DNA from: a virus | Reading direction: 5' to 3' (one strand) | IMG/VR virus record: IMGVR_UViG_3300031576_000948 | Location: 1 to 38,819 of that record | Length of the DNA stretch: 38,819 nucleotides | Shown: positions 3,249 to 38,819 of the stretch, piece by piece | Layout of the letters: each line of letters begins with the position of its first letter | How positions within the stretch are numbered: the first letter of the stretch is position 1 | The notes under the pieces: model-generated | The model's database searches: none | Told to the model about the DNA's origin: nothing | What the model saw: only the letters and a program-made list of their open reading frames with translations | Position numbers and translations under genes: made by a program

Positions 3249-3375
3249 AGTGGAGGCGGCGGGAATCGAACCCGCGAAACGTTCCCCCCGCTCGCAAGAC
3301 GCCGTCCTCCTTCGGCGCGGGATGCGTCGAGTACGACTGGCTCGAGGACTTCAAGGGCCGCGAAGGTTTCGTGCT
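3249..3375. repeat. Left attachment repeat (attL)
   Basis: These 127 bases are identical to 38693-38819. Left of 3249 the sequence is host; left of 38693 it is phage, so 3249 is the true left edge of the shared core. The right edge is not resolved because the second copy stops with the window. The repeat starts with a tRNA-type 3' end on the minus strand. Confidence 0.88.
3251..3275 (-). tRNA. T-arm and acceptor 3' strand of a tRNA-type gene (fragment)
   Basis: On the minus strand there is a 5-bp T-stem (3271-3275 with 3259-3263), the loop TTCGATT (3264-3270), a 7-base acceptor strand (3252-3258) and discriminator A (3251). CCA is not encoded. No D-arm, anticodon arm or matching 5' acceptor strand is found within 90 bases, so this is a fragment of a tRNA or tmRNA gene that the phage uses as its attachment site. 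tmRNA is weakened by the lack of the usual GGAC before the T-stem. The same segment recurs at 38695-38719. Confidence 0.6.
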
Positions 3376-5365: not shown

Positions 5366-5403
5366 AGTCAGACCTTCGGGCAACGTTGCCCGAAGGTCTG
5401 ACT
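5366..5403. repeat. Perfect 38-bp palindrome with no loop
   Basis: Positions 5366-5384 are the exact reverse complement of 5385-5403, with centre AACGTT. Zero spacer makes it a poor RNA hairpin and a better dimer- or tetramer-binding site or cruciform. It is preceded by two tandem copies of GGCCGCCA (5351-5366). It lies just after the HTH operon and just before the twin operator-like repeats. Confidence 0.9.
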
Positions 5404-7389: not shown

Positions 7390-9120
7390 GTGGCTCTGGG
7401 CCGTCCTCGCAAGCGTCTCGTCGACGTGGTCAGGCAGGAGACGTTCCTCGCGCGACAGCATCATCGGCTGCTCGGGGATCGTGAGCCGCTGCCGTGGCCG
7501 GGACTGGACGGCTTCCGCCGGCGGTATCTCGCGCAGGGGTCGGAGAAGGAGCGGCGTGAGGTTGCGCTCGAGCTGGAGCGTGCGATTCGCGAGCACGGTT
7601 CTCGCGTGCTGTTGGGCGATCTGCAGGCGGAGCTGCGCCGGTTGGGCCCGCCGAAGTCGTACCGGCAGCTGGAGCGGTTCTTCCCCCGCTTCTTCAAGCA
7701 CTCGCGGGGGCCGTCTGCGGGGCAGCCGTTCAACTTGGACGGCTTCCAGCGGGCGTTCCTGCGTGAGTTCTGGCGTCGCGACGGCCGCGGCGAGCGCATC
7801 TACCAGGTCGGCTGCCTCGGCATCCCTAAGGGCAACGGCAAGACGCCTCTCGCGGCCGCGCTGGGCACACACGCTCTGGTGTCGCAGCTCGACGACCCGG
7901 AGGTGTACGGCATCGCCGGCAGCAGAGACCAGGCCGGCATCGCCCACGGCTTCGCGAGCAAGAACATCCGCGACGCCGAGCTCGCCGCATGGCTTGATAT
8001 CGGCTCCTCGATCACCTGCGTCGATCACGACGGCTTCTTCGACATCCTCTCTTCCGAGGGGGATCTGGGGCACGGCACGCAGCCGTCCGCGGCGATCGTG
8101 GACGAGTGGTGGCAGTTCCGCCACCGCGCCCAACGTGAGGCGTACACCGCGCAGGCGCAGGCTTTGCACAAGCGTCCCGGGGAGGCCTGGTTGCTAGCGA
8201 TCACGACCGCCGGCTGGGACATCGGATCGCAGCTCGGCGAGACCTACCAGGCCGCTGTCGCCGATCCGCGCCTCGAGCTGCACGACGACGGGTCGCTGAT
8301 GGTCCTCCGCGACGAGTCCGCCGGCATGCTCTTCTGGTGGTACGGGGCGCCAGACGACGCGGCGATCGACGACCCGAAGGTGATCCGCCGCGCGAACCCG
8401 CTGCGGATCGTGCGCCCCCAGGATCTGCTGCGGGAGTTGCGCCGCCCCGATACCGACGAGAACGACTGGGTGCGGCTCCACTTGAACAGGTGGACGAAGG
8501 CGCGCACCGCGTGGATGCGCGCCGGGATCTGGGCGGGCCTTCGGGCTGACGTCCAGATCCCGGTGGGCGCGGAGATCACCGTCGGCATCGACGCCGCCCG
8601 CAGCTTCGACACCACGACGGTGGCGTGGGCGTGGCGGGCCCCGGACGGGCGGCGGGTGCTGCGCTCGCACGTGTGGAGCGTCCGTCAGCAGCATCCGCAT
8701 CACACATTCGTGCCCGGCGGCGAGCTCGTGAACGAGGAGCTCGTCGAGCCCTATATCGAGCAGCTGGCCGCCATGTACCGGGTCAGGGAGATCGGCTTCG
8801 ATCCGCGTTTCTTCAGTGCCGAGGCCCGCCATCTCTCCAATCAGGGGTTCAACGTGGTCGAGCTGTACCCGCAGTCGGCGCCGATGGGCGACGCCGTCAC
8901 CGCCTTCGAGAAGGCGGCCTTGGACGGCCAGCTCTCCCACGACGGCGACCAGGTACTCGCCGCCCACATCGACGCCGTCGACGCCGTCCGCACCGACGGC
9001 GGCACGAAGATCCGCCGCACCGGCCGCCGCGCGATCGACGCCGCCGTCGCCTGCGTGATCGCCAACTACCTGACCGAGCAGCCCGCCCCCGTCGAAGCGG
9101 CCGCCTGGAGGCCGCTGTGA
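7390..9120 (+). CDS. terL: Terminase large subunit
   Basis: A 576-residue ATPase-nuclease that cuts phage DNA and pumps it into the prohead through the portal. The Walker A motif GIPKGNGKT is at 144-152 (K151), Walker B AAIVDEWW at 234-241 (D238, E239), and coupling motif ITTAGWD at 271-277. The RNase H-like nuclease domain begins with TVGIDAARSFDTTT (D401), with a further acidic residue in EIGFDPRF. The order and length are typical of HK97-type phages (Terminase_1 family). GTG start at 7390; its stop overlaps the portal start (GTGA). Confidence 0.97.
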   Translation: MALGRPRKRLVDVVRQETFLARQHHRLLGDREPLPWPGLDGFRRRYLAQGSEKERREVALELERAIREHGSRVLLGDLQAELRRLGPPKSYRQLERFFPRFFKHSRGPSAGQPFNLDGFQRAFLREFWRRDGRGERIYQVGCLGIPKGNGKTPLAAALGTHALVSQLDDPEVYGIAGSRDQAGIAHGFASKNIRDAELAAWLDIGSSITCVDHDGFFDILSSEGDLGHGTQPSAAIVDEWWQFRHRAQREAYTAQAQALHKRPGEAWLLAITTAGWDIGSQLGETYQAAVADPRLELHDDGSLMVLRDESAGMLFWWYGAPDDAAIDDPKVIRRANPLRIVRPQDLLRELRRPDTDENDWVRLHLNRWTKARTAWMRAGIWAGLRADVQIPVGAEITVGIDAARSFDTTTVAWAWRAPDGRRVLRSHVWSVRQQHPHHTFVPGGELVNEELVEPYIEQLAAMYRVREIGFDPRFFSAEARHLSNQGFNVVELYPQSAPMGDAVTAFEKAALDGQLSHDGDQVLAAHIDAVDAVRTDGGTKIRRTGRRAIDAAVACVIANYLTEQPAPVEAAAWRPL

Positions 9121-31413: not shown

Positions 31414-32228
31414 CCGCGTTCAAGGTTCTGACGCACGATTACTGCCCGCCGGTGCAGGGCGGCAAGCCGGTGTGGGACGGCGAGACGCTGCCGTTCGCGC
31501 TCCGCAAAGTGAAGCTCGACACGTCGCTGGCGGAGTGCGCGGCCGGCTGGAACTACACCGACGGCCTCTCCACCGCGCTCCGCATCGCCGGTCTGTGGCC
31601 GAACGGCCGCCCAGCCTGCTGCCTGATGGTCGAACCATCCTCGGACGCGCTCGAGCGTGGTGACAAGCGACGCTGCTCACAGCTGACCATCCAGCGGCGA
31701 GCCACGGACGAGGAGATCCTCGCCGCGATCCGCGCGCTCCCGATCGACTTCGGCGAGCACGAGGAGCGCATGGTCGACTCGCAGCTGGCCTGGTACCGGG
31801 CACTCGGCCGCCCCGACCACGACCCGGCGGCAGCAGAAGCGGGTCTCAAGGCCGCGCTCGCAGAGCGCGGCCTTGAATGGACGCTCCGCCGCTTCGACAC
31901 GCCGCGGGGCGCGCGGGACGCGTGGGACGCGTGGGGCGCGCGGGGCGCGCGGGGCGCGTGGGGCGCGTGGGGCGCGTGGGGCGCGTGGGGCGCGCGGGAC
32001 GCGTGGGACGCGTGGGGCGCGTGGGGCGCGTGGGGCGCGCGGGACGCGTGGGACGCGCGGGACGCGCGGGACGCGCTCACCGTTGAGTTCGTCGCCCTGC
32101 AGGGCTGGATCGATCTCGCCCCTCTCAAGCTCACCACGGGGCTCCGAGACGCGTACACAGCCGGTCTCGGCATCGCGCTGCCGACCGCGACGGGCGAGCT
32201 CGGGTGGGCGATGGATGACGTGTCGTGA
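31410..32228 (+). CDS. Protein with 18 tandem three-residue repeats (272 aa)
   Basis: The ATG at 31410 follows GGAGGACGC and overlaps the previous stop. Residues 1-166 look folded ([46 protein letters not shown]). Residues 167-220 are 18 units of G/D-A-R/W, encoded by a 9-bp tandem repeat. A short conserved-looking C-terminus follows ([27 protein letters not shown]). The regular W/R spacing suggests a helical or solenoid rod. Related repeat proteins exist in phages and bacteria, but the function is unknown. Unit number should vary. Confidence 0.72.
31846..31876. repeat. 14-bp perfect inverted repeat inside a coding gene
   Basis: The arms 31846-31859 and 31863-31876 pair exactly around GCA, only 31 bases before the tandem repeat tract. 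It encodes part of [13 protein letters not shown]. It has the same design as the P450 repeat: long arms and a three-base spacer within an open frame. Confidence 0.85.
31908..32069 (+). repeat. 9-bp tandem repeat, 18 units
   Basis: Units follow G-G/A-C-G-C-G-C/T-G-G and encode G/D-A-R/W. Differences are limited to two positions, so many units are identical. The tract is dense in ACGCGT and GCGCGC. Length changes of one unit keep the frame, making this a likely variable-number repeat. Confidence 0.95.
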
Positions 32229-32797
32229 CCGGCCAGCTGCCGCTGCTCGAGGTTCTCGCCGATGAGCGCACGCTCGATGACGCGGCACGGACGGTGCTGG
32301 AGGCGATCGACCGCCGTGGTTCGCTGACGGCGAAGCAGGCGGGCCGCGTCGTCTACCGGCTGCGCGGCTTCCGCGTCACGATCGGCGTCCCCACACTGTG
32401 GGTCATCGCGGCCGGGGCGCGCGTGCTCGGCCGCTTGGAGCGTCATGGGCTGGTCGAGCGTCGCAAGGGCCGCTGGAGCCGCTGCTCTGACTTGATAGGG
32501 CCCGAGCGAAGCGAGGCGGCTCGACTCGTAGCACGCGACGCACGACGGGCGCCTACCGGCCGGGCGGTTGACGCTACCGAGCGCGTGCTCGAGGCAGCCG
32601 TGCAGGTGCGGCTGCGTGAGCTCGATCAGCTCGGCGATCTGTCCGACGGCGACTCACGCCGCGTGCTCGCCCGGCTCTTCGCCGCCGTCGACGGGCTCAT
32701 CGGTCAACTGGTCTACGACCGCGCTCGAGAGCCCGCCCTTATCGCTCCGCTTGACGCCGATTCGGCCCGCTCGGAGGGGCTCCGGGAGTCCCTGTGA
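32225..32797 (+). CDS. Winged-helix-like replication-region protein (190 aa)
   Basis: A GTG start with GTGA overlap. Residues 17-80 ([43 protein letters not shown]) form a winged-helix domain. The C-terminal half is helical ([39 protein letters not shown]). It lies directly before the replication initiator and may assist origin binding. No named family is recognised. Confidence 0.62.
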
Positions 32798-34083
32798 AGG
32801 GCTCGGAATCTATGCCGTCCGATCACCCTCTTACGCTTTCAGCGGGGCACGGCGGCGATCCATGTAACGTCTCGTCAGAGTTCCGGGATAAGTCGGCACA
32901 TTACGACGACGTCCCCCCGCTTCGCGACCGGGCGTCACAGCGAGTCGACGAGGGGCGCTGCGTGAGCCCCGCCTACGGGATCCGCTGGCTCATGTACGAC
33001 GGCTCGCTCGAGCCCGTCCGCTGCGGCGCCTCGAACCGCTGCGACTACTGCGCCATGTTCGCCGCGATCGAGTCGAGCGTCGTGCTCCGTCTCGACGCTC
33101 AGATCAACCGGCCGACGTGCGGGATCACGACCACGACACGCCGGCCGGACTTCCCCGTCGACGAGCTGCGCAAGGCCGAGCAGAAGCTCTGGCGAGCGCT
33201 GCGCAAGGGCCGCCGCATCGGGGTGCTTGGGCCGCGGAGGAAGGACGAACCGCGCTACGAGGCCTTCCCGGATCTCCAATACTGCGGCTTCCTCGAGTGG
33301 ACGACAGGGGAGGGGACACACTCGGGCGGTCACCGTCGTCCCCACATCCACCACCTCGTCAAGGGCATCCCCAGCGATCACCCGCTCCTCGAGGTGCTCT
33401 GGATCGAGGGGCCGGCGCCGAACTTCGAGCCCGTCCAGACGACGAAGCTCGAGCAGCGCGTCTCGGAGCTCTGGCACGCGATCACCGGAGACGCCTTCCA
33501 GGTGGACGCGCGGCCGCTGCGAACCCCGGCCGGCGCGATCGCCTACCTCTCGTTGCACCACCACAAGCGCGAGCAGTCGCCGCCGCCAGGCTTCCGCGGC
33601 CGCCGCCTCCGCCCGTCGAAGGGCTACTACGAGCTCCCGATCGCCCAGCTGCGCCAGCTCGCACGCAAGCTGACCTCGCAGGATCGCGTGCGCATGGCAG
33701 TCAAGAACGCGGTCGCCGTCGAGCTTGAGGGCGCCGATGCCCCGGCTCATTACGAGGCCGACGAGCTGATGATGAGCGCTCTCTGTGAGGGGCTTCGCGA
33801 CCTGGCGCGCGACCCGCTCGAGCTGCAGATCGACATCTGGGGCGAGACCGATCACGAGGCCGAGCGCCAGGAGCTTCTCCGTCGCACGATCGACGAGCTG
33901 GAGAAAATCCGCAACGCCCACCCGCCCGAGCTCGTCCAGGTGCACGAGCAGCAGGACGTCGACGACTCGACCGGGATCGTCACGAGGCGCGCCACCGCCG
34001 TGCTTGGCGCGCTCGAGCCGAAGCTCAAGCGGCGCTTCGTCGCCAATCGAGACCGCGAGTTCGTGGAGGCCGTCGCCGCATGA
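32794..34083 (+). CDS. HUH-type replication initiator (rolling-circle Rep-like), 429 aa
   Basis: The N-terminal part has zinc-type cysteines (C77, C83, C86 in CGASNRCDYC). TCGITTTTRRPDFP near 108-121 and CGFLEWTTGEG near 164-174 match Rep motif 1 and its following strand. The HUH motif RPHIHHLVKG is at 182-191 with H184 and H186. The catalytic tyrosine is likely Y251 in AIAYLSLHHHK, with K258 nearby. HUH proteins nick one DNA strand and bind its 5' end to start rolling-circle synthesis. The GTG start overlaps the previous stop; an in-frame ATG six codons later is possible. Confidence 0.8.
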   Translation: MKGSESMPSDHPLTLSAGHGGDPCNVSSEFRDKSAHYDDVPPLRDRASQRVDEGRCVSPAYGIRWLMYDGSLEPVRCGASNRCDYCAMFAAIESSVVLRLDAQINRPTCGITTTTRRPDFPVDELRKAEQKLWRALRKGRRIGVLGPRRKDEPRYEAFPDLQYCGFLEWTTGEGTHSGGHRRPHIHHLVKGIPSDHPLLEVLWIEGPAPNFEPVQTTKLEQRVSELWHAITGDAFQVDARPLRTPAGAIAYLSLHHHKREQSPPPGFRGRRLRPSKGYYELPIAQLRQLARKLTSQDRVRMAVKNAVAVELEGADAPAHYEADELMMSALCEGLRDLARDPLELQIDIWGETDHEAERQELLRRTIDELEKIRNAHPPELVQVHEQQDVDDSTGIVTRRATAVLGALEPKLKRRFVANRDREFVEAVAA

Positions 34084-34445
34084 CGCTGCTCGTCGTCGAG
34101 TCGACCGTCGCCGCCTCGACCGTCTGCGAGGGCGACGAGGTCTTCATCTCCGAGGCGTTCGGCTTCTGCGTCGTCACCTCAGTCGGCGTCGACGACGTCG
34201 GGCGCGTGCGGGTCGTCTACTGCAAGCGCGGCGAGGATTCCTGGGTGAAGGGCTGGTATCGAACGTCGTGGCTCGTCGAACGCTCGCTCAGGCCGTTACT
34301 CGCAGGCGACCTGCTACGCGTGCGGCGAGGAGATCCTGACCGTGCCGACGAGGCCCGACTCGCGATGCAGTACGAACGCGAGGCGCGTTGGCGTGGCCTC
34401 GCGGTTCGTGGCGTCGTGAAGGCGCTCGGGGAGCTGGGGCCGTGA
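34080..34445 (+). CDS. Replication-region hypothetical protein (121 aa)
   Basis: ATG overlapping the initiator stop (ATGA). The N-terminal 65 residues are strand-rich (DEVFISEAFGFCVVTSVGVD; RVRVVYCKRGEDSWVKGWY), resembling a small SH3 or Tudor-like barrel; the rest is helical and basic. It may bind DNA or the initiator. No family is recognised. Confidence 0.62.
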   Translation: MTLLVVESTVAASTVCEGDEVFISEAFGFCVVTSVGVDDVGRVRVVYCKRGEDSWVKGWYRTSWLVERSLRPLLAGDLLRVRRGDPDRADEARLAMQYEREARWRGLAVRGVVKALGELGP

Positions 34446-34837
34446 GCCGGCTGCTGCTTGTCGTGTGCGTGCTCGCCGTCGGCGCGCTGATCGTGTTCAC
34501 GACGGACGCGCAGCCGCAGCCGCCTGCTGGTCGCGCGGTGATGCGCGGGTTGATCGTGGAGAGGTTCGGCTCCGGCTGGTTGGGCCGCGAGATGGTGTGC
34601 ATCGCGGATCGTGAGTCGGGTCTGGATCCGCGCGCGGTCAACTGGCGTGACCCGCATGTGAACGGCCGCGGCTCGTTCGGGCTGTTCCAGATCGGCCGCG
34701 TGCACGTGCACTACGTCGGAGGCGATTGGCGTCGTCTGCTCGTGCCGACCGTGAACGTGCGCGTGGCGTGGCAGCTGTACCGGGCTGGTCGGCGCCGCGG
34801 CGAGTCGGGGCTTGGGCCGTGGGGCGGCGGCTGCTGA
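34442..34837 (+). CDS. Membrane-anchored lytic transglycosylase (SLT-like), 131 aa
   Basis: The GTG at 34442 begins a hydrophobic segment (LLLVVCVLAVGALIVF, residues 4-19), a signal or anchor sequence. The catalytic glutamate is E58 in CIADRESGLDP, and RGSFGLFQIG at 76-85 is the second goose-type lysozyme/SLT motif. It would cleave peptidoglycan glycan strands. It is far from the lysis genes and inside the replication operon, so it is probably made in the lysogen or early in infection. Confidence 0.78.
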   Translation: MSRLLLVVCVLAVGALIVFTTDAQPQPPAGRAVMRGLIVERFGSGWLGREMVCIADRESGLDPRAVNWRDPHVNGRGSFGLFQIGRVHVHYVGGDWRRLLVPTVNVRVAWQLYRAGRRRGESGLGPWGGGC

Positions 34838-35073
34838 TGGAGCCGAGCGCACGCTGCGGGTCGTGTGAGGCGCCGATCGTGTGGGCTCGCACGGCGCGCG
34901 AGGCGGGCGGCCTGCTCGCGCGGGCGGTCACACCCGTGCGGGAGGCGGAGCTTGAGCGGCTCTTGCTGGACGCGGCCCGCGACGGAGTGTCGGCGCCGGT
35001 GCTGCTGCACGTGTCGCACTTCGCGACCTGCCCGAACGCCGGCAGTCACCGTCGTGCGAGGGCGGCGTCGTGA
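34837..35073 (+). CDS. Conserved small zinc-type phage protein (78 aa)
   Basis: The ATG at 34837 overlaps the previous stop by one base. CGSCEAPIVWARTAREA at residues 7-23, then VLLHVSHFATCPNAGSHRR near the end, is a familiar layout in actinophages: a CxxC pair and a late His-Cys pair likely to bind zinc. The function is not known. It overlaps the ATPase gene by GTGA. Confidence 0.75.
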   Translation: MEPSARCGSCEAPIVWARTAREAGGLLARAVTPVREAELERLLLDAARDGVSAPVLLHVSHFATCPNAGSHRRARAAS

Positions 35074-36878
35074 GCGACTTGCGCATCTCGCCCGAGGTTC
35101 GGCTGCCGGTGGATGTCGCCGGCGAAGCGATCGCGATCCTCGCCAAGCGCGGCGCCGGCAAGACGAACACGGCGACGGTGCTCGTCGAGGAGCTCGTCAA
35201 CCGCGCGGGCGTACAGACCGTGATTCTCGATCCGGTCGGCGCCTGGTGGGGTATCCGCTCGAGCGCCGACGGCAAGCTGCCCGGCCTGCCGGTGCCGATC
35301 CTGGGCGGCCAGCACGGGGACGTGCAGATCGAGCAGACGGCGGGCGCGTTGATCGCCGACGTCGCTGTAGACGCCGGTCAGAGCCTGCTCGTCGACCTCT
35401 CCGATCTTCCCTCGAAGGCCGCAGTGGGCAGGTTCGTGACCGACTTCGCTGAGCGGCTGTTTCGGCGTAAGGCGCGCGCGCATTCGCTGCTCCACCTCGT
35501 GCTCGAGGAGGCCGACGAGTTCGCGCCGCAGCAGGGTCGCGCCGACACGGCTCGGATGCGCGGCGCGATCGAGCAGATCGTGCGCCGCGGCCGCAGCCGG
35601 GGTTTGGGTGTGACGTTGATCACGCAGCGCTCGGCCGTCTTGAACAAGGACGTGCTCACGCAGGCGGACGTGCTGATCGTGATGCGCACGACGGGCCCGC
35701 AGGACGTGAAGGCGATCCGCGAGTGGGTCACAAGCCGCGGCGACGACCGCGGCGCCGAGGTCTTGCAGTCGCTGCCAGGCCTCGAGACGGGCGAGGCGTG
35801 GATCTGGAACCCCGAGCGCGACATGCTCGCGCGGGCGCGGATCCGTCGGCGCGAGACGTTCGACAGCTCGCGTACGCCGAAGGCCGGTGAGCGCCGCGCC
35901 GAGCCCGCCAGGACAGCGTCGATTGACCTGGCGTCGCTCGGCGAGCGGATCCAGGCGACGGCGGAGAAGGCGAAGGCCGAGGACCCGCGCGAGTTGCGCC
36001 GGCGAATCGCCGAACTCGAGCGTGAAGTGCAGAAGGCCCCCGTCGGGCAAGCCGAGCCTCGCGTCGAGACCGTGGTTGAAGAGCGCATCGTCGAGGTGCC
36101 CGTACTCAACGGCCAAGTCGAGGACCTCGAGCAGGCGATTACTGCGATGCGTGACGTCGCCAGCCAGGTCGCGGCCGCGGGCGAGGCGGTGCGGGCTGGC
36201 GCGGAGTCGATCGCCGGCGCGATCATGCAATGGCGACCCCGCGGCGTTGCGCGGCCGCGGGCGGAGCAGGGCGAACAGAAGAGAGCCGCGACGGAGGTAC
36301 AGCCCCGGGCCGCGCGCCCGACGGTCGAGGCCGTGCGTCGAGCTCCCGCGCGGCGTCCTGTTCCGCCGGCGGCCGACCGCGCCGACGCCGAGGTCACGAG
36401 CTCACAGCGTCGCGTGCTCGACGCTCTCGCCTGGTTCGAGGCGGTCGGCGTTCCGCAGCCAAGCCGACCCGCCGTCGCCTTCATCGCCGGGTCGCGGCCG
36501 ACGTCGGGCGGCTTCAAGAACAACCTGGGCGCGCTGCGCGCGCTCGGCCTGCTCGACTACCCGCAGGGCGGCCGTGTCGCGCTCACCGAGGCCGGCCGCG
36601 GCGTTGCTACGTCGCCATCGTTCGCTCCGACGGTCGCTGAGCTGCAGGAGGCCGTGTTCTCCGCCGTGGGCGGATCGAAGGCGACGATCGTGCGCATGCT
36701 CGTCGCCTGCTATCCGGATCCGCTCAGCCGCGAGGAGCTCGCCGATCGTGTCGGCGTCCCGGTCACGTCGGGCGGCTTCAAGAACAACCTCGGCGCGCTG
36801 CGCACGCTAGAGCTCATCGACTACCCGCAGACCGGCTACGTGGTCGCGCTGCCCGCGCTCTTCCTGGAGGAGGTCTGA
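35070..36878 (+). CDS. HerA/FtsK-like ATPase with duplicated C-terminal winged-helix-like repeats (602 aa)
   Basis: Residues 1-260 form a RecA-type motor: Walker A AKRGAGKTN with K31, Walker B LHLVLEEADEF at 141-151, and VTLITQRSAV at 181-190 as the sensor strand. HerA-type motors are hexameric and translocate on double-stranded DNA. Residues 285-385 are coiled coil. A basic, Pro/Ala-rich linker leads to two homologous domains near 440-515 and 525-600, each with the same SGGFKNNLGALR block (first at 479-490, second at 567-578) and a DYPQ turn. These look like winged helices that read DNA. The GTG start overlaps the previous stop. Confidence 0.85.
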   Translation: MSDLRISPEVRLPVDVAGEAIAILAKRGAGKTNTATVLVEELVNRAGVQTVILDPVGAWWGIRSSADGKLPGLPVPILGGQHGDVQIEQTAGALIADVAVDAGQSLLVDLSDLPSKAAVGRFVTDFAERLFRRKARAHSLLHLVLEEADEFAPQQGRADTARMRGAIEQIVRRGRSRGLGVTLITQRSAVLNKDVLTQADVLIVMRTTGPQDVKAIREWVTSRGDDRGAEVLQSLPGLETGEAWIWNPERDMLARARIRRRETFDSSRTPKAGERRAEPARTASIDLASLGERIQATAEKAKAEDPRELRRRIAELEREVQKAPVGQAEPRVETVVEERIVEVPVLNGQVEDLEQAITAMRDVASQVAAAGEAVRAGAESIAGAIMQWRPRGVARPRAEQGEQKRAATEVQPRAARPTVEAVRRAPARRPVPPAADRADAEVTSSQRRVLDALAWFEAVGVPQPSRPAVAFIAGSRPTSGGFKNNLGALRALGLLDYPQGGRVALTEAGRGVATSPSFAPTVAELQEAVFSAVGGSKATIVRMLVACYPDPLSREELADRVGVPVTSGGFKNNLGALRTLELIDYPQTGYVVALPALFLEEV

Positions 36879-37044: not shown

Positions 37045-37385
37045 GCGGTCTGCAGCAAGGCTGGTGTCCGTCGTGCCGCGAGTGGACGGTGATCGACCCT
37101 GGCCGCCCCTGCGCGTGGTGCGACACGATCGTGTTGCGCAGGCGTGGCGGCTGGAAGCGTCCCGATCTGCAGCGCATCTCACGCGCGCAGGCGTTGGCGC
37201 TGCATGCCGTCTACCGGCGCGGCGTGTCAACGCGGGAGCCGGGCCGCAGGCTGCACGACAATCTCGGCTATTCGGCCTGGCAGTCGGCGGCCGAGGCGAT
37301 CCGTAACGCGTTCCACCGTGAGGGGCTGCCACTACGGACGCCGGCTGAGCCGAGCCTCTTCACCACGATCGAGGCGCTCGCGTGA
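37041..37385 (+). CDS. Zinc-ribbon plus helical protein before the integrase (114 aa)
   Basis: The GTG at 37041 overlaps the previous stop. Two CxxC pairs (CPSC near residue 9, CAWC near residue 24) form an N-terminal zinc ribbon. A helical domain follows (SRAQALALHAVYRRGVS; AWQSAAEAIRNAFHREG). Directly upstream of the integrase, it could be a recombination accessory factor, but this is not shown. Confidence 0.68.
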   Translation: MSGLQQGWCPSCREWTVIDPGRPCAWCDTIVLRRRGGWKRPDLQRISRAQALALHAVYRRGVSTREPGRRLHDNLGYSAWQSAAEAIRNAFHREGLPLRTPAEPSLFTTIEALA

Positions 37386-38401
37386 CGCACTCGTTGCAGG
37401 AGGTGCGCGAGGCGTTCATGATCGTCGCCGACGTCGTGCGCGATAAGAGCTACCGGGCGTTCCCGCTCGGCCAGGAGGCCGGCCACTATCTGCGGTTCAA
37501 GCGCAAGAGGCTCACCGCGGCGTCGTATCGCGACTACGAGAGCTGCCTCGACAAGCTGGCGCGTGACTTCCCGGTGCTCGAGCTGCGCGACTTCGAGCCT
37601 CCGGTCGGGACCGAGCGGCTCGAGGAGTTCCTCGACAACCGCTGGGGCGCCGGCGCCGGCCGCACGTACAACAAGAACCTCTCGATCGTCCGCGACTTCT
37701 TTAAGTGGGCGGTCCTCCGCGGCCGCCTCCACGGGGATCCGACGCTCGCGATCGAGCGGGCTCGCGGCCGGTCCGTGTACCGCACCACGTTCACCGCTGA
37801 CCAGGCGCGAGCTGTCCTCGCCGCCTCACCTGACCTGCGTGACCGGGTGGCGCTGCGGCTGCTGCTCCACTACGGGCTCCGCAAGGGCGCGCTGCGCGCA
37901 GTGCAGTTCATGCACTTCGACCATCAACGGCGGCGGCTGACGGTGTTCTCGAAGGGCGAGACGGTGCGCAGCCTTCCGCTTCCGCAGCCGAAGTTCTGGC
38001 TCGAGCTCGAGCGGCTGATCCTCGATACGGAGGCGCAGCCGGCGCACTACCTGATGCAGCGGCGCAAGACGATCCCGCGCACCTTCGACCCGGTGACTCA
38101 CAAGACGCTGACCTTCGGTCTGCGCGTCTGGCCCGACAAGCCGATGGGCGACCATGGCCTGCACGACTGGTGGTACGCGCGCCTCGCGGCCGCCGGTGTC
38201 GTCGAGCCCGGCGTCACCAGCGGGGAGCGCATGCACAAGGCGCGGCACACCGCCGGCCAGCATCTGCTCGACGAGACGGGCAACCTGAAGGCGGTACAGC
38301 GGTTCCTGGGCCACGCGACGATCAAGACGACCGGGGACATCTACACAGATTGGGACATCGACCAGCTCGAGCAGACGCTCAGGGACGCGATCGACGAGTG
38401 A
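37382..38401 (+). CDS. int: Tyrosine-type site-specific integrase
   Basis: A 339-residue tyrosine recombinase. The core-binding helices are at 33-115 (ASYRDYESCLDKLARDF; YNKNLSIVRDFFKWA). The catalytic residues are R167 in YGLRKGALRAVQ, K191 in VFSKGETVRS, H285/R288 in MHKARHTAGQ, H311 in FLGHATIKTT and the nucleophile Y321 in DIYTDWD. All are present, so it should be active. It integrates the phage into the tRNA-type site; the right repeat begins 291 bases after its stop. No N-terminal arm-binding zinc or AP2 domain is clear. GTG start, GTGA overlaps on both sides. Confidence 0.94.
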   Translation: MTHSLQEVREAFMIVADVVRDKSYRAFPLGQEAGHYLRFKRKRLTAASYRDYESCLDKLARDFPVLELRDFEPPVGTERLEEFLDNRWGAGAGRTYNKNLSIVRDFFKWAVLRGRLHGDPTLAIERARGRSVYRTTFTADQARAVLAASPDLRDRVALRLLLHYGLRKGALRAVQFMHFDHQRRRLTVFSKGETVRSLPLPQPKFWLELERLILDTEAQPAHYLMQRRKTIPRTFDPVTHKTLTFGLRVWPDKPMGDHGLHDWWYARLAAAGVVEPGVTSGERMHKARHTAGQHLLDETGNLKAVQRFLGHATIKTTGDIYTDWDIDQLEQTLRDAIDE

Positions 38402-38692: not shown

Positions 38693-38819
38693 AGTGGAGG
38701 CGGCGGGAATCGAACCCGCGAAACGTTCCCCCCGCTCGCAAGACGCCGTCCTCCTTCGGCGCGGGATGCGTCGAGTACGACTGGCTCGAGGACTTCAAGG
38801 GCCGCGAAGGTTTCGTGCT
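38693..38819. repeat. Right attachment repeat (attR or attP), cut by window end
   Basis: Identical to 3249-3375 over all 127 visible bases. If it is attR, the rest of the tRNA-type gene lies beyond the window. If it comes from excised phage DNA, it is attP and simply re-enters the left end. The exact stop at 127 bases suggests an assembly k-mer boundary. Confidence 0.85.

Follow-up and report, generated by a model that had tools for sequence, protein, structure and literature searches.

A probable exchangeable HUH initiator of the single-stranded DNA phage type beside a HerA-like motor with two matched C-terminal repeats in a temperate prophage

HUH Rep initiators have been swapped among inoviruses, tailed phages and plasmids (PMC6668415). 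Among DNA motors borne by mobile elements, TraB assembles at clt by reading 8-bp TRS repeats on its own plasmid (PMC4170104), and pairs of HerA with Sir2 have been described in phages (PMC9503650). Here, we analyze the whole 38,819 bp of the IMG/VR virus record IMGVR_UViG_3300031576_000948 (hereafter the window), with emphasis on two of its genes, one for a predicted HUH initiator (Rep) and one for a HerA-like ATPase (HerA). We consider it probable that the locus sets an exchangeable initiator of the single-stranded DNA (ssDNA) phage type, which would use a host helicase, beside an independent HerA motor. The region as a whole is best explained as the end of a temperate siphovirus-type prophage that serves replication and control, and Rep as an HUH endonuclease with one tyrosine, belonging to the VP4/G2P kind of microviruses and filamentous phages, for which cleavage activity is predicted.

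The Rep initiator and its relatives

The open reading frames (ORFs) for Rep and HerA are both present as listed in Table 1, with a strong codon bias at GC3. Rep is composed of an N-terminus with putatively zinc-binding cysteines, an HUH core at residues 85-300 and a helical C-terminus. The initial annotation had recognized an HUH initiator with an HIH motif and a candidate tyrosine, and this assignment is upheld: H184-I-H186 and Y251 lie where they were placed and are invariant in two full-length relatives. Because E168, K258 and the cysteines C56, C77, C83 and C86 are likewise invariant across the three full-length members, the HUH motif does not represent a chance occurrence of HxH. Y251 is the only conserved tyrosine of motif 3; VP4 proteins carry two invariant tyrosines four residues apart, and the second of these positions is occupied in Rep by H255.

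Structural and profile comparisons tentatively place Rep with the initiators of the Microviridae. An AlphaFold model of the core (pLDDT 76, pTM 0.73) has the order beta-alpha-beta-beta(HUH)-...-alpha-beta-alpha(Tyr), and when this core was compared with predicted viral structures (Foldseek, BFVD), all of the named top matches were replication initiators of the Microviridae (probability 1.00, E 2e-4 to 1e-3). Comparison with solved HUH domains (VIA) returned parvovirus NS1, adeno-associated virus Rep, SIRV1 ORF119, geminivirus Rep and pMV158 RepB at Z 6-7. Additionally, a Rep profile aligned with a profile of ten Microviridae VP4 proteins (hhalign) gave a collinear alignment in which Cys cluster, Glu, HUH and Tyr fall at corresponding places (P 5e-4). 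Judged from these motifs, Rep is a predicted one-tyrosine version of the VP4-type initiator, and represents a divergent form of a known initiator kind in an unusual setting.

The relatives found for Rep are few. One, in an actinobacterial metagenome-assembled genome (MAG), has 46% identity over the core; the second full-length relative, at 39% identity, is in another genome of the same class, and a fragment lies beside an integrase in a third genome. Neither single-protein tblastn searches of phages, plasmids and IMG/VR nor a sequence search of the PDB returned a relative, and a profile search of IMG/VR and 396 genomes of the phylum added none; class-wide weak matches (E 0.002-0.1), inspected in part, included no further Rep. 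Rep matches no Pfam family at E <= 1, REP_ORF2-G2P (PF23343) included, and its only PHROGs match, to "replication initiation protein," is weak (E 0.16). The best relative with gene context, L010, has as its neighbors genes for a Zot/pI ATPase (6.7e-20), a Gp8-like coat protein (0.004) and additional small proteins, and its Rep weakly matches REP_ORF2-G2P (E 0.009, below the cut-off). This locus (L010:7910-14364) is an apparent filamentous-phage (inovirus) prophage with an HUH Rep in an actinobacterial genome. Given that setting and the known exchange of HUH initiators (PMC6668415), the plain reading is that the window Rep is a captured initiator of the ssDNA phage type.

A candidate double-strand origin lies approximately 0.9 kb upstream of rep, where a perfect hairpin with a 14-bp stem (31846-31876) adjoins an 18-copy tandem array of a 9-bp unit (31903-32073) that also encodes WDA/WGA/RGA repeats. 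The hairpin exceeds chance expectation (0 of 20 shuffles). Longer perfect stems of 17 bp occur elsewhere, at 1624-1660 in a probable host P450 gene and at 5366-5403 between early prophage genes, and near the two Rep relatives there is no matching hairpin and no clear shared sequence; for these reasons the segment 31846-32073 is retained only as a weak candidate.

Several observations weigh against the assignment of Rep to the VP4/G2P kind. A Foldseek search of the core against the PDB gave nothing at E <= 0.001, and in the VIA comparison unrelated RRM-like folds tie with the HUH domains at Z 6-7 and Thg1 scores 8, so that the fold call rests on the viral library together with the motif register. 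The HH probability of the match between Rep and VP4 is just 31%, as compared with 0.2-0.7% for reversed and unrelated controls. The Rep family is also tiny, its three full-length members yielding a weak profile, and for the double-strand origin on which Rep would act there is just the weak candidate above.

The HerA-like motor and its C-terminal repeats

The second protein matches DUF87 (7.5e-9) and HerA_C (3.1e-7) above the cut-off, and the NCBIfam HerA model (7.9e-21), in agreement with its original designation as HerA-type. Its N-terminus leads directly into the ATPase core, and its C-terminal part consists of a coiled-coil-like linker and two winged-helix-like repeats. Relatives are encoded in 185 IMG/VR stretches; among the 77 members collected, K31 (Walker A), E147 (Walker B) and R187 (sensor Arg) are invariant in all 77, and 65 carry at least two C-terminal repeats. 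In PHROGs, the only matches of the family are to an entry labeled "terminase" or to entries of unknown function. The window protein itself matches PHROG 2666, labeled "terminase large subunit," in a phage that has a genuine TerL, and this label may be misleading.

The two C-terminal repeats reported earlier for this protein are real (88% identity over 72 nt, 63% amino acid identity over 43 residues); that they read DNA, as also proposed, is putative. Across the 65 two-repeat proteins, the repeats within one protein agree in 80% of cells at columns 33-43, vs 35% under random pairing and a maximum of 42% in 1000 shuffles in which repeats were paired between proteins. For the rest of the repeat, the corresponding values are 34% and 27%. 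The matched columns cover three places, namely the beginning of helix 1, the putative recognition helix and the wing, which is where a winged helix would be expected to contact DNA. For example, the matched strings are SGGFKNN/SGGFKNN in the window, SSGFEKN/SSGFEKN in L071 and GHFNNLV/GHFNNLV in L083; L014 has the recognition string of the window. Among the window protein and its homologs (L005, L013-L092), putative recognition-helix residues are the same within each HerA and strongly variable between phages. Recent gene conversion was considered as the source of the matched repeats and rejected: codon identity at the matched residues is 0.54, close to the 0.455 expected from codon usage, so it is selection acting on the protein, rather than recent copying, that maintains the match.

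Matches of the repeats to Pfam are weak (HTH_Crp_2 7e-4, MarR_2 0.003), the winged-helix assignment drawing on the sequence pattern as well, and a search of solved structures with the repeat profile gave nothing significant; we accordingly refer to the repeats as putative winged-helix heads. Their pattern of identity suggests that both heads of a protein read one DNA word that differs from phage to phage. In the literature searched, no description of paired matched heads in HerA-like phage motors was found.

A search for this word gave no clearly over-represented candidate in the prophage. Iteron-like arrays are present in seven other HerA-bearing phages (L019, L033, L036, L053, L063, L068 and L087) and consist of 9-bp words, several in both orientations, such as ATACTGGCA in 12 copies in L036. 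These arrays were rejected as the word read by HerA. Most overlap large ORFs resembling initiators, and L050 has the HerA recognition string of L053 without its array, so they are probably initiator iterons. When phages were grouped by recognition string, their sharing of dyads either stood at chance level or followed from relatedness.

The family neighborhoods bear on what such a motor might do. HerA has diverse nearest neighbors (DUF5131, integrase, ParB, RusA and methylases), and ParB is encoded within 10 kb in 12 family loci, adjoining HerA in several. This association, together with two heads whose identical, phage-specific strings would suit a repeated cis site, favors a segregation or partition device, its heads bound to a centromere-like site and its motor transporting the phage genome. 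We regard this function as somewhat unlikely, as ParB is missing from most loci and from the window, the search for a shared repeated DNA site turned up none, and an integrated prophage needs no partition. A prophage-borne motor for defense or inter-phage conflict, akin to the HerA-nuclease and HerA-Sir2 systems, has a precedent in the phage HerA-Sir2 pairs (PMC9503650), and PADLOC HerA models do match the ATPase core (9e-19). This function, too, is improbable: no NurA, Sir2 or other nuclease partner lies next to HerA or appears among the families listed for the 67 window ORFs, the four neighboring ORFs tested have no PADLOC match, the family neighbors (DUF5131, integrase, ParB and RusA) are not one effector, and the N-terminal region of the defense HerA proteins is missing from the architecture.

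The relation between Rep and HerA and the prophage setting

In the loci and genomes compared, Rep and HerA do not travel together. A Rep profile run over the ORFs of 82 HerA loci (the window and 81 others) matched the window only, tblastn recovered Rep in 0 of 4 whole HerA records, no G2P-type Rep was found in 46 other HerA-bearing records, and the Rep-bearing genomes encode no relative of the window HerA. The replication module into which the initial annotation had joined the two proteins is thus not supported, co-occurrence in the other records being absent in both directions. As the records come from metagenomes and some may be incomplete or fragments, the absences are soft and any single one carries little weight, which counts against our interpretation; their direction is consistent. 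The best syntenic relative of the window, L002, keeps the transglycosylase-like gene, HerA, the short Cys ORF and the integrase, and carries an O-like initiator (phrog_6643, 1.3e-6) and ParB in the place of Rep, which indicates that the initiator is exchangeable. Rep is best read as an exchangeable initiator cassette beside an independent phage motor, and HerA as a separate, widespread phage motor that is not the replicative helicase partner of Rep.

The alternative of a dedicated replisome, in which Rep would nick the origin and recruit HerA to unwind or move rolling-circle DNA, draws on the position of rep and herA 1 kb apart on one strand, on the putative action of both proteins on DNA and on the lack of a DnaB-like helicase. 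The last of these was correctly noted at the outset: the 25 top-ranked of 36 Pfam families for the 67 window ORFs include no match to DnaB, primase or DnaA. Such an absence is not odd, since nearly all replication genes are missing from many tailed phages, which use those of the host (PMC11348598). We assign the dedicated replisome a low probability. Besides the missing co-occurrence, HerA relatives are found alongside O-like initiators, 5 of 50 HerA-bearing records also have DnaB, and HerA-type motors move on duplex DNA.

The window represents a temperate siphovirus-type prophage inserted in the 3' end of the transfer-messenger RNA (tmRNA) gene, with its own terminase, and not an integrative conjugative element (ICE). 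Exact direct repeats of 127 bp flank the 35-kb prophage (Table 1), and profile matches identify a large terminase (7390-9120; phrog_9, 5.6e-71), portal, S49 protease, capsid, tape measure and endolysin; these genes other than the protease, combined with the integrase and the att repeats, mark a temperate tailed phage. ARAGORN misses the tmRNA at the right repeat, as the window end truncates the gene. Left of the other repeat, a P450-like ORF (933-2318) is probably host DNA, and the host is probably actinobacterial.

Table 1. Features of the window relevant to Rep, HerA and prophage integration
Feature	Position	Strand	Evidence
Left att copy, displaced tmRNA 3' end	3249..3375	-	127-bp exact direct repeat
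Rep, 429-aa HUH-endonuclease replication initiator	32794..34083	+	Motifs, relatives, core model, Microviridae fold matches
Cys cluster C56, C77, C83, C86 of Rep (putative zinc site)	32959..33051	+	Invariant in 3 members; VP4 of Microviridae also carries an invariant Cys cluster where the two align
E168 of Rep, putative third metal ligand, strand preceding HUH	33295..33297	+	Invariant; aligns with invariant E115 (GEYG) of VP4
HUH motif of Rep, H184-I185-H186	33343..33351	+	Both His invariant; on modeled strand 182-190
Motif 3 of Rep, Y251 to K258	33544..33567	+	Y251 invariant; modeled helix 245-256 after last core strand
Small overlapping ORF	34080..34445	+	No family match
Lysozyme-like/transglycosylase SLT-like protein	34442..34837	+	SLT_3 9.9e-5, below Pfam cut-off; transglycosylase-like gene at same place in L002
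Short Cys-containing ORF (CGSCEAP...HFATCPNA)	34837..35073	+	Similar short ORF between HerA and integrase in L002
HerA-like ATPase, 602 aa, stretch before Walker A too short for a HAS barrel	35070..36878	+	Profile matches; invariant catalytic residues
Winged-helix-like repeat 1 of HerA, residues 439-522, recognition segment 479-490	36384..36635	+	Repeat alignment, profile matches
Winged-helix-like repeat 2 of HerA, residues 523-602, recognition segment 567-578, same SGGFKNNLGALR string	36636..36875	+	Repeat alignment, profile matches
Tyrosine integrase beside right att site	37382..38401	+	PF00589 2.4e-16, phrog_1 1e-38
Right att copy, 3' end of tmRNA (ssrA)	38693..38819	-	Same 127-bp repeat; RF00023 E 9.1e-10, gene cut by window end

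The same gene content speaks against two further proposals of the initial annotation. HerA is not the only DNA motor, given the normal large terminase, and the suggested resemblance to an ICE is not supported in view of the complete complement of genes for head, tail and lysis. A transfer module like that of the actinomycete integrative and conjugative elements (AICEs), in which Rep, a double-stranded DNA (dsDNA) motor and the integrase would make the element conjugative as in pSAM2, could call upon the Rep relative in an actinobacterial MAG, an initiator of the rolling-circle replication type, a tyrosine integrase next to att, and a dsDNA motor whose putative sequence-reading heads recall TraB on its 8-bp TRS repeats (PMC3218068, PMC4170104). 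We consider an AICE-like module highly improbable. Searches with positive controls found no match to an FtsK/SpoIIIE Tra protein (PF01580) in the window; Rep matches none of RepSA, RepAM, Prim-Pol or any other Pfam family at E <= 1, and none of these is among the families listed for the other window ORFs.

Proposed scheme and comparison with known systems

In the scheme that we favor, an exchangeable Rep beside an independent motor, Rep would nick a double-strand origin with Y251 after excision of the prophage and remain covalently joined to the 5' end. The 3'-OH would then prime rolling-circle synthesis by the host polymerase and a host helicase, presumably recruited as in P2-type phages. HerA, with its ATPase intact and its two winged-helix-like heads matched, may be a hexameric dsDNA translocase that is loaded at a phage-specific DNA word and that moves, segregates or protects the phage genome. 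More tentatively, the phage HerA-like proteins may constitute a class of sequence-addressed motors, each using a repeated word to recognize no genome but that of its phage, a possibility to which we give somewhat less than even weight. If so, they would be a phage counterpart of KOPS/TRS addressing, with heads identical at the DNA-contact residues within and diversified between phages, and the window motor would work beside the captured Rep but independently of it. The significance of the locus is twofold: a tailed prophage carries an initiator of the ssDNA phage type in a slot that swaps between HUH and O-like proteins while its neighbors stay, and a widespread family of phage HerA-like proteins bears the signature of two heads that selection putatively holds to one shared, phage-specific word.

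Among described initiators, those of Microviridae (VP4) and inoviruses (G2P), grouped as REP_ORF2-G2P in the HUH superfamily, resemble Rep in the order of Cys cluster, Glu, HUH and Tyr helix and, tentatively, in predicted fold, and the closest relative with gene context is in an inovirus-like prophage. Rep differs from them in its location in a tailed dsDNA prophage, its single conserved Tyr, the second Tyr position being taken by His, its long helical C-terminus and its lack of a significant match to the Pfam model. P2-type phages provide a parallel as temperate tailed phages that combine their own HUH initiator (gpA) with a host helicase, a combination predicted here. P2 gpA has a Tyr pair, whereas Rep has a single Tyr and no Phage_GPA match at E <= 1.

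The window HerA shares with the HerA/FtsK-HerA ATPases the Walker A motif, the Walker B Glu, the sensor Arg and matches to HerA profiles. Unlike the repair HerA proteins, it has no room for a HAS barrel and no NurA, and it adds the coiled-coil-like linker and the two winged-helix-like repeats. Finally, the TraB/FtsK motors of Streptomyces plasmids and AICEs, which are dsDNA motors acting at element-borne repeats, offer a likeness by analogy; the window motor is distinguished from them by its HerA core, by two matched heads per subunit and by its residence in phages that possess a terminase.

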